DNA of 64,000 nucleotides from Corallococcus macrosporus DSM 14697 (GCF_002305895.1 NZ_CP022203.1:8822001-8886000), one strand, 5' to 3'; shown: positions 45,101-52,000, counted from the first letter of the stretch. Program-made: numbers and translations. The notes: a model not told the origin generated them from the sequence alone.

Positions 45101-45481
45101 GAAGCAGGTGCGCAGCGCCTCGTGGCGCTGGAGGATGTGCCCCAGCGCCCGCTCCAGCACGTCCACGCGGAGCGGCCCCTCCAGGCGGACGGCGGCGCAC
45201 AGGTTGTAGCTGGCGGAGCCCCCCTCCAGCCGGTCCACCAGCCACAGGCCGCGCTGGGCGGACGAGGTCGGCAGCGCCCCCTCACGGGGCACCCGCGTCA
45301 ACGTGACCAGGGCGGCCTCGTCCCTCAGGTGCGTGAGCAGCGCGGGCTTGGCCGCGGACAGCCGCTCCCGCAGCTCGGGCGTCAGCGCCCCCTTGGGGGC
45401 GGTGATGCGCAGGTGCTCTCCGTCCGCGCGGAGGGTGATGCCCAGGCGCGACAGCTCGGTCAACAGGGCGTGCGTGCTCAC
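42098..45481 (-). CDS. NRPS module C-A-PCP
   Basis: An 1127-residue single module. A TubC-like docking segment (about 1-50) precedes a condensation domain with HHIISDAWS near 192, suggesting an LCL-type or starter-type condensation. The adenylation domain (about 515-1020) has TSGSTGRPKG, A4 FDICVQESF and A5 NNYGPSEAH; the carrier domain has RGGHSLLATR with the phosphopantetheine Ser near 1064. The specificity residues read by eye as D-I-Q-H-Y-A-N-V-I. Positions D, Q, A and V agree with proline codes (DVQ..A.V.), but the match is partial and the substrate is not assigned. It overlaps both neighbours by 4 bp (ATGA). Confidence 0.94.
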   Translation of the reverse strand: MSTHALLTELSRLGITLRADGEHLRITAPKGALTPELRERLSAAKPALLTHLRDEAALVTLTRVPREGALPTSSAQRGLWLVDRLEGGSASYNLCAAVRLEGPLRVDVLERALGHILQRHEALRTCFPAVDGAPVQRVLPAWPVALPVEAVRDVEREAEHFARQPFALEVGPLFRARLVRSPDGAHHLWLAMHHIISDAWSMGLLLRELSALYEAFAAGRPSPLPELAVQYVDFAGWQRRYLTSALGAAQLDYWREQLEGLPPRLELPTDRPRPSVQTNRGATLRFELDSVLTRGLKQVAQEAGATLYMALLAAWSVVLGRYSRQDDVAVGSPVANRKHRETEALIGFFVNTLVLRAKLEGDPSFLELLGRVRQVTLEALAHQDVPFDAVVEALQPERDLSHTPLFQAMFVMHNAPSGPMKLGDVTATPAALETGTAKFDLTLTLEERDTRLVGALEYNTDLFDAATGERMVESLRALLLGAVEAPSRPVGRLPLLGAAQRERAALGWSTPRLPYDAERCIHHLFEAQARQTPDAVAVVHGARTVTYRELEVGANRLAHHLRALGVGPEVLVGFCVERSPEQLLGLLAILKAGGAYLALDPMSPRERNAFMLQDARARVLLTQRPLLALLPESPATTVCLDALSEAELGARPGTPPPVAAGPESLAYVLYTSGSTGRPKGIAMRHGPLANLIAWQLRVCTVGPGHRTLQFAPWNFDICVQESFSTWATGGAVVVVPDEVRKDAVALLDFLQAHDVQRLHVPFVVLQGLAEAAQALGRVPSSLREVYAAGEALQVTPAVEHFFRALPGCVLYNNYGPSEAHVITSHALAGDPGGWPRLPPVGQALPNTRIYLLDRLGQPVPVGVGGEVYVGGDCLARGYLHRPDLTAERFVPDPFSTTPGARLYRTGDLARALRDGTLEYLGRVDFQVKVRGFRVELGEVEAMLCQHPHVREALAMVREDRPGDRRLVAYVAPRPGATLEVPALRAFLKERLPDYMVPSALVLMDALPQTNAGKVERSRLPVPTGEAEALYVAPRTPEEAAVAAVWAEVLGVAQVGVHDHFFERGGHSLLATRATFRVGEALGVTLPLRSLFEEPTVEGLARRVTALKWAAQAAVVMESGEDREQGEL

Positions 45482-49023: not shown

Positions 49024-52000
49024 CTAGCTCGGAAGGACCTTCCCCGTGGCGTGGAGCACCCAGGGCTCCTGGCCACCCGCCCGGCTGTGGACGTGGAACG
49101 TGAGCGCGTCCTGCTCCCCGGAGGGCGCCACGCTCACCTGCACCGTGCGGCGACCGGACTCGGGGACCGCGAGCATCTTGCGGTACTCCACGTCGCTGAC
49201 GCCGCCGGGGCGCTGGCCCAGCAGCTGGCCCGCCGCCGCGAGCGCCCACTCCACGTACACCACGCCCGGCACCACCACCGTGCCCTGGATGCGGTGGTCC
49301 GCGATGAACGTGAGCTGCTCGCGCGCCAGCTCCCGCTGCCACACCTGCCCCTCGGCGCGGGCGGCCACCGCGGGCAGCCGGTGCCCCAGCAACGGGTGCG
49401 CGGGCCCCTCCCCCACGGACGCCTGCGCCGGGGGCAGCTCCAGCCAGTGGCGCTCGCGCTGGAAGCGATAGGTGGGCATGGACACGCGGCGGCCCGGCGC
49501 CAGCACGTCCCAGCGCACCGGCGCGCCCAGCGCGTGCAGCGCCGCGACGCTGGACAGCATCCGCGGGAGGTCCGGCTCCCGCGCGCGCAGGCTCGGCAGC
49601 CACTGCGCCGAATCATCCGGGGGCAGGCACGCCCGGCCCAGGCCGGTGAGCGTGGACGTGGGCCCCACCTCCACGAAGGCGTCGCACCCCAGCCGCCGCA
49701 AGGCGCGCACCCCGTCCGCGAAGCGCACCGCCTCGCGCACGTGGCGGCGCCAGTAGGCGGGCGTCAGCAGCTCCGGCCCCGCCACCTCGCCCGTGAGGTT
49801 GGAGAGCACGGGCACCGTCGGCGCGTGGAACGTCACCCGGGACGCGGCGGCCTCGAAGGCGTCCAGCATGGGCTCCATCAGGGGGGAGTGGAACGCGTGA
49901 GAGACCTTCAGCGGGCGCGCCTCCACGCCCCGCGCCGCCAGCGTGGCCGCCACCGCGCGCACGGCCTCCGTGCGCCCGGAGATGACCACGCCGCGAGGCC
50001 CGTTGTCCGCCGCGAGGGACACGTCGCGCGCATGGGGCGCCACGGCCTCCATGACCTGCGCCACGGGCGCCAGGACGGACACCATCTCCCCGTCGCGCGG
50101 CAGCGCCTGCATCAGCCGGCCCCGCTCCGCGATGAGCCGCAGCCCGTCCTCCAGGCTGAAGACGCCGGCCACGCACGCGGCCACGTACTCGCCCACGCTG
50201 TGGCCCAGCACCGCGGCGGGCTCCACGCCCCAGGCGCGCCACGTGCGCGCCAGCGCCACGCCCAGCGAGAACAGCGCCGGCTGCGCGTACGCCGTGTCAT
50301 CCAGGGGGGACGCGGCGCCGTCCTCGGGGTACAGCACCGACAGCAGGGGCCGCTCCAGGAGCGGGCGCAGCAGCGCGTCGCAGTCCTCCAGGGTGGCCCG
50401 GAACACCGGCTCGGCGGCGTAGAGGCCCCTCCCCATGCCCACGAACTGCGAGCCCTGCCCGGTGAAGAGGAAGCCCACGGACGGCCGCTGACCGGCGGGC
50501 GCCGTCCCCCGGATGACGTCGGCGTCCGCCTCGCCGCGGGAGAACGCCTGCAGGGACGCCTGGGCCTCCTCGGGGGTGGTGGCCACCAGGGCCAGCCGGT
50601 GAGCGAAGTGGGCCCGGCCGTTCGCGGCGGTGTGGCAGGCGTCCGCCAGCGACAGCCCCGGAGGCCAGGCAGCGGGGTCCGCCCACGCCCCGGCGAGCTC
50701 GGCCAGGGCCTTCTCGTCGCGCGCGGACAGCGTGAGCACGCAAGGGGCGTCCCGCGCGGGCGCCGCGGGCGCGGGGCGCTCCGGCGCCGACTCCAGGATG
50801 GCGTGCGCGTTGGTCCCGCCGAAGCCAAACGAGCTCACGCCCGCCCGGCGCGCGGGGCCCGTCCAGGCCCGCCGCGCGGTGGGGATGGCCAGGGGGACAC
50901 CCTCCAGGCGGATGTAGGGGTTGAGCTCGCGCAGGTGCAGGTGCGCGGGGATGGCCTCGTGCTGGAGTGACAGCGCGACCTTGATGAGTCCGGCGATGCC
51001 GGCGGCCGACTCCAGGTGGCCGATGTTCGTCTTCACCGAGCCCACCCACAGGGGCCGCTCCAGGGGCCGGCCCTGGAGCAGCACGGCCTTGAGGGCGTCC
51101 ACCTCGATGGGGTCGCCCAGCGGCGTCCCGGTGCCGTGCGCCTCCACGTAGTCGACCGCGTCGGCGGACACGCCCGCGTCCGCCAGCGCCGCGCGCAGGA
51201 CGGCCTGCTGCGCCTGCCCGTTGGGGGCGGTCAGCCCGTTGCTGCGGCCGTCCTGGTTGATGGCCGAGCCCCGCACCACCGCCAGCACCCGGTCCCCGTC
51301 CCGCTGCGCGTCCCGCAGGCGCTTGAGCACCACCACGCCGCAGCCCTCGCCGCGCACATAGCCGTCAGCGGCGGCGTCAAACGTCTTGCAGCGCCCGTCC
51401 GCCGCCATCATCCGCGCCTGGGAGAAGGCCACCGTCATGTCCGGCGCCAGCAGCAGGTTGACGCCCGCGGCCAGCGCCATGCCGCACTCGCCCCGCCGCA
51501 GGCTCTGCACCGCCTGGTGCACCGCCACGAGCGACGAGGAGCACGCGGTGTCCACCGCCAGGCTGGGCCCCCGGAGGTCCAGCACATAGGACAGGCGGTT
51601 GGCCGCGATGCTGAACGCGATGCCGGTGCCCGCGTAGGCGTCCAGCGCGCCGGGCGCCTGGGCCTGCAGCCGCGCGTAGTCGCCGCTGCTGACGCCCACG
51701 AAGACGCCCGTGTCACTGCCCGCCAGGCGGTCCGGCGCCAACCCCGCGTCCTCCAGGGCCTCCCAGGCCACCTCCAGCAGCAGGCGCTGCTGGGGGTCCA
51801 TGCCCCGGGCCTCGCGGGGCGCGACGCCGAAGAAGTCCGCGTCGAAGCCATCCACCTGCCGCAGGTATCCCCCCCACCGCGTGCTCATCCGGCCGGGAGG
51901 CGGCGGCGCCGGGTGGAACAGGCGCTCCACGTCCCAGCGCGCCGGGGGCGTCTCGGTGATGGCGTCCACGCCGTCGTGCAAGAGCCGCCAGAAGGAAGCG

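Follow-up and report, generated by a model that had tools for sequence, protein, structure and literature searches.

A luciferase-like monooxygenase between the halves of a split polyketide synthase dehydratase in Corallococcus macrosporus

Here, we examine two adjacent genes in a 64,000-nucleotide stretch of Corallococcus macrosporus DSM 14697 DNA (NZ_CP022203.1:8822001-8886000; the window), which is part of a one-contig genome. The genes divide one polyketide synthase (PKS) module, and with it one dehydratase (DH), between two proteins, with a luciferase-like monooxygenase (LLM) at the break. They belong to a four-gene line of PKS and nonribosomal peptide synthetase (NRPS) genes on the minus strand, the strand of every window feature described here, so the line operates from high to low coordinates. 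Domains were called by Pfam and NCBIfam matches on the translated proteins. The first gene (49024-54120) encodes starter activation and the first extension: an AMP-binding domain of the fatty acyl-AMP ligase (FAAL) type, an acyl carrier protein (ACP), a ketosynthase (KS), an acyltransferase (AT), and, at the C-terminus, a match to PF21089. Its longest open reading frame (ORF) opens at 54402, and we take the ATG at 54120 as the start. The second gene (45478-48960) has a GTG start directly at the LLM, which is followed by the other dehydratase half, a ketoreductase (KR) catalytic domain (46045-46629) in which the Tyr of NYAAAN is present, and the ACP of the module (45541-45735).

The N-terminal hot-dog half of the dehydratase (DHn; 49081-49398, residues 1669-1774) matches PF21089, PKS_DH_N, with 90 bits and an E value of 1.1e-25. 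Sequence and alignment place the catalytic His codon of the HxxxGxxxxP motif at 49294-49296. The C-terminal half (DHc; 47377-47838) matches PF14765, PS-DH, with 111 bits, and its catalytic Asp (HPVLLDSSLL) is encoded at 47626-47628. By Pfam, the FAAL-ACP-KS-AT-DHn protein has no PF14765 and the LLM-DHc-KR-ACP protein has no PF21089. Both halves are present in the module, but on two chains, with no complete dehydratase in either. The catalytic His and Asp are likewise intact and on different chains, and the Gln or His that normally stands four residues past the Asp (+4) is Leu in the alignment. Between the halves lie the TAG stop of the first gene and a 63-nucleotide gap (48961-49026), past which the frame happens to stay open, and then the LLM (47932-48954). 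The LLM matches TIGR04020, the MupA/Atu3671 family, with 474.4 bits (cut-off, 244.45) over profile positions 1-341 of 341. An earlier interpretation of this DNA, the sequence-only reading, had described exactly this: a FAAL-PKS protein ending in the first dehydratase half, a next protein with a full LLM, the second half, KR, and ACP, and a catalytic pair on separate chains. It erred in assigning the C-terminal half to 49024-54120; the two genes are the other way around.

The sequence-only reading also called for a search for homologs of this split, and profile and protein searches recovered 17 such loci in at least five phyla. At every one, DHn ends one gene and LLM-DHc opens the next, so the halves are on separate genes in 17 of 17. 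Pfam confirms DHn and DHc at most of them; at locus L074, DHc falls just under the Pfam cut-off. The myxococcal loci are the window, its counterparts in Corallococcus praedator (95% identical) and in genome G047 (65%), and three further Corallococcus loci. The rest come from Streptomyces sp. SAJ15, three Bacteroidota, four cyanobacterial genomes or plasmids, Burkholderia arboris, and one unassigned metagenome-assembled genome (MAG), which has two. Junctions between the paired genes range from a 4-nucleotide overlap to a gap of at most 63 nucleotides at 16 of the 17 loci; at L074, the gap is 814 nucleotides. Few genomes of an order-level sample of 145 contain a full LLM-DHc match, and the copy nearest to that of the window is in another genus; this suggests horizontal transfer. 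Three FAAL proteins also carry an LLM beside the carrier protein (L103 699-3929, L072 664-3984, and L167 8539-11979), in L103 and L072 upstream of the split module; these may oxidize the starter acid a second time. For the plasmid copy of Burkholderia arboris (L147 7559-12001), a blastp comparison with the window AT shows no full AT in the KS-DHn interval.

Could the split be an artifact? In the window, the gap keeps the frame and a single TAG separates the ORFs, as expected if one continuous PKS gene were hidden by an error in sequencing or assembly or by stop-codon read-through. We consider this exceedingly improbable. The independently sequenced C. praedator has the identical TAG and gap. 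The relative frame of the two genes is equal at 5 of the 17 loci and different at 12, three loci have 4-nucleotide overlaps, and the gap measures 12 nucleotides at L148 and 11 at L164, two similar cyanobacterial loci. Because the frames differ and the gap lengths vary, no shared error or read-through underlies the split, and the differing frames refute it as a general explanation. The ratio of nonsynonymous to synonymous substitution rates (dN/dS) is below 0.6 in every domain tested, which rules out a dead locus. By this measure, the dehydratase halves are under purifying selection, with dN/dS in DHn and DHc often above that of the LLM. Across the clade, the alignment nonetheless shows variation at the active site: in the His motif, H is replaced by N, Y, S, or A and P by S, and at +4, Q is replaced by L, R, E, A, G, or V.

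The nearest solved structure to the split-module LLM is PuwE OX, the OX domain of a hybrid PKS/NRPS (PDB 6KET; 46% identical). In our tree, the split-DH LLM belongs to a clade of PKS-associated LLMs apart from those inserted in adenylation (A) domains, with support of 100/99. The domain therefore lacks the hallmarks of an LLM of the MtaG type: it is flanked by PKS dehydratase halves, and it sits in the other clade. Its separate clade also rules out a recent jump of the neighboring A-domain LLM, described below, into the dehydratase. The approximately unbiased (AU) test did not reject one common origin for the split-DH LLMs (p = 0.114), and standalone LLMs from Bacteroidota and single-chain verrucomicrobial LLMs nest within the split-DH clade. 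The standalone genes, of about 350 amino acids, occur at L086, L088, L093, L105, and L110, several of them immediately following thioesterase-containing NRPS genes. MupA, for which the family is named, hydroxylates beta-keto-ACP at the alpha carbon in vitro, and not beta-hydroxy-ACP (PMC10953402). Because MupA accepts the former and not the latter, the order of reactions would be condensation, alpha-hydroxylation, and then ketoreduction. From this published work, together with the cyanochelin B structure discussed below, we infer that the LLM here is an alpha-hydroxylase of beta-ketoacyl-ACP.

Structure prediction addressed whether the halves fit together. For the window, AlphaFold2 received the read-through frame as a single chain, comprising DHn, the TAG as Gln, 21 intergenic residues, the LLM, and DHc. 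The DHn part of the alignment held only rows whose DHn and LLM share a frame; L147 and L148 were left out. Solved PKS dehydratase structures align across model residues 13-686: 7ZMF over 268 of 279 residues (Z 30.8, rmsd 2.4) and the CurF dehydratase over 266 of 274. The LLM of the model matches PuwE OX with a Z of 43. For a cyanobacterial homolog in which the catalytic His is Asn, the AlphaFold2 model matches 7ZMF over 263 of 279 residues (Z 25.7, rmsd 3.2). Thus, both halves are predicted to form one double hot-dog, with the LLM looped out.

A concrete chemical precedent comes from a relative. Locus L148 is the published cyanochelin B cluster of Leptolyngbya NIES-3755 (BAU16016; BAU16015 is CcsC). 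The first PKS module of the cyanochelin B synthetase, like the window, reads FAAL-ACP-KS-AT-DHn, with a next gene that starts LLM-DHc and ends KR-ACP. Unlike the window module, it carries a C-methyltransferase, located between DHc and KR, and serves a siderophore pathway. The PKS-derived unit of cyanochelin B is CH(OH)-C(OH)(CH3) beside a thiazoline, that is, 2,3-dihydroxy-2-methyl; the KR-derived beta-hydroxyl is kept, the alpha carbon is hydroxylated, and no dehydration is seen (PMC12628792). The published domain scheme and figure legend list Ox and no DH, and the main text does not describe the split (PMC12628792). Because the product of this relative has both hydroxyls and the window has no methyltransferase, we predict by analogy that the corresponding unit of the window product is a 2,3-dihydroxyacyl chain.

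Our proposal is that the two genes probably constitute one alpha-hydroxylating split PKS module, in which the dehydratase halves act mainly as the joint between the proteins. Specifically, FAAL-ACP would load a fatty acid, and KS-AT would add a malonyl unit. The LLM, an FMN-dependent, MupA-like enzyme, would hydroxylate the alpha carbon of the beta-ketoacyl-ACP, after which KR would reduce the beta-ketone and the 2,3-dihydroxyacyl chain would pass to the NRPS modules. DHn and DHc would associate in trans as one double hot-dog, joining the two proteins and placing the LLM where a dehydratase would sit, and the rejoined dehydratase would probably not dehydrate the chain. We infer both the docking and the absence of dehydration.

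Variant modules bear on this role. In the same LLM clade, verrucomicrobial modules are single chains, KS-AT-LLM-KR-ACP, without a dehydratase. One verrucomicrobial chain, KS-LLM-KR-ACP (L122 3634-8346), has no detected AT. At three Corallococcus loci (L043-L045), DHn is instead fused to a PhyH oxygenase and paired with LLM-DHc-KR-ACP, with no KS or AT in the neighborhood examined. There, Ser, Ala, or His occupies the catalytic His position of DHn, and L043, the one full copy, has Ser in place of the KR Tyr. DHn dN/dS is 0.13-0.43, and all parts tested are under purifying selection. The L043 operon (6974-8752 and 3585-6953), like those of L044 and L045, adjoins an M28 peptidase gene. Finally, L074 (2081-6346 and 7107-10706) has a complete dehydratase plus an extra DHn, then, across its long gap, a separate LLM-DHc-KR-ACP gene whose DHc is strongly diverged. 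These comparisons suggest that the dehydratase fold is kept as a joint. More tentatively, and with somewhat less confidence than we would need to favor it, the split halves could be a docking device that holds the alpha-hydroxylating module, with DHn a portable tag, carried on PhyH in Corallococcus and behind a complete dehydratase in L074.

Several points weigh against a mainly structural dehydratase in an alpha-hydroxylating module. His and Asp are intact in the window, where the +4 Gln/His is the sole loss, so a re-formed dehydratase could be active. The diol comes from a relative whose LLM-DHc is 49% identical and whose module includes a methyltransferase, and the LLM step of the cyanochelin B pathway is an assignment and not a tested reaction. 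The pattern that split modules keep the dehydratase and single chains lack it draws on few single-chain cases (three MAG loci). The structural model is a single chain with a 22-residue read-through linker and not a two-chain complex, its DHn alignment is shallow (four rows), and the DHn pLDDT is about 40-79.

These points leave room for other explanations. The rejoined dehydratase could be active, removing the beta-hydroxyl after alpha-hydroxylation and ketoreduction to give an enol and then a 2-oxoacyl (or a 2-hydroxy-enoyl) chain. The intact His/Asp dyad in the window and in several relatives, the purifying selection on all domains, and the activity of the split cremimycin dehydratase when its halves are artificially joined, as given in a review (PMC11284099), fit such an enzyme. 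We nonetheless think it unlikely: both hydroxyls persist in cyanochelin B even though its module carries the same halves, and neither the His motif nor the +4 position is constant over the clade, the window having Leu at +4. These arguments bear on the two outcomes that the sequence-only reading had offered. Its combined oxidation-dehydration unit is disfavored. Its disabled dehydratase is favored by the cyanochelin B diol, yet is too simple a description for halves that purifying selection maintains and whose reassembly is predicted.

Alternatively, the halves could be leftovers of a recombination that placed an LLM gene before a PKS fragment; they would neither assemble nor have a role, and other contacts would hold the module together. 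Decay of catalytic residues in several lineages, the often higher dN/dS of DHn and DHc, and the single-chain relatives that manage without a dehydratase are what such relics would show. We judge this quite unlikely, however, as both halves are kept over large divergence in 17 of 17 split loci, are predicted to fit together in two divergent homologs, and remain partners even where DHn rides on PhyH. It is more doubtful still that the LLM performs a Baeyer-Villiger-type oxygen insertion instead of alpha-hydroxylation, or is inactive here: cyanochelin B has an alpha-hydroxyl and an intact carbon chain at its PKS unit, and the LLM is strongly conserved with a full TIGR04020 match.

Parts of the arrangement have precedents. 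In cremimycin biosynthesis, a cis-AT dehydratase is split over two proteins, CmiP3 and CmiP2, according to the same review (PMC11284099, citing Kawasaki 2019), and the window halves match the cremimycin "Fusion DH" (PDB 6K97) by sequence. As in the window, the cremimycin halves are on separate genes, and the common fold of the window pair is predicted, from a read-through chain. An LLM of about 345 residues precedes DHc in the window, which sets cremimycin apart, as far as the review describes it. In the alpha-hydroxylation bimodule of mupirocin, too, an FMN oxygenase of the TIGR04020 type works on a PKS intermediate bound to a carrier, but MupA is free-standing and recruited in trans to a trans-AT PKS, and no split dehydratase is described (PMC10953402). 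Monooxygenase (MOx) domains are inserted in glycine A domains in myxothiazol and melithiazol biosynthesis and in some corallorazine relatives (PMC11342130). They resemble the window's terminal NRPS module in that a monooxygenase is built into the megasynthase; unlike the split-module LLM, they lie inside an A domain and form a separate LLM clade. Corallorazine Crz1/Crz2 has an A domain split over two genes that works when the parts are mixed (PMC11342130), but this is an NRPS adenylation domain with no oxygenase at the break. The sequence-only reading knew of no description of an LLM between the halves of a cis-AT dehydratase; we likewise found no published description in the open-access papers searched, and a split dehydratase without an LLM is known from cremimycin. 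What is new is that an LLM and a split dehydratase are combined, that this combination and the gene break are conserved across phyla, and that the dehydratase has probably changed its role.

Downstream of the split module, the line continues with an NRPS module of TubC docking, condensation (C), A, and peptidyl carrier protein (PCP) domains (42098-45481). The terminal module (36738-42101) is TubC docking-C-A-PCP-thioesterase (TE), with a second LLM, of the A-domain clade, inside its A domain (38775-39797). Its specificity code, DILQLGMVWK, read by hand from motifs without a predictor, is glycine-like; this code, the LLM in the A domain, and the TE make an MtaG-like terminal amide likely. The predicted product would be an N-(2,3-dihydroxyacyl) amino acid amide, with the amide derived from a glycine that the second LLM hydroxylates and the amino acid assigned with low confidence. 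Just upstream of the cluster, an ornithine cyclodeaminase-like enzyme (PF02423; 54744-55868) has a possible role in precursor supply, and with the Pro-like, hand-read code of the first NRPS module, DIQLYANVIK, may point to proline or a comparable ring amino acid. Farther upstream on the same strand, genes for an outer-membrane efflux protein and an AcrB-type transporter (58835-63731) may export the product.

Docking between PKS proteins is usually achieved by small helical tags. If our proposal is true, a divided catalytic fold with this function within a single module would represent a new class of joint, of practical use for linking synthase halves. It would also supply a genome-mining rule: DHn followed by a next gene that opens with LLM-DHc would denote a 2,3-dihydroxyacyl unit, in places that standard annotation might mark as either a broken dehydratase or a plain Ox. 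The cyanochelin-type Ox step would gain an anatomical setting, and the notion of a pseudo-dehydratase as a scaffold would become directly testable in culturable bacteria.
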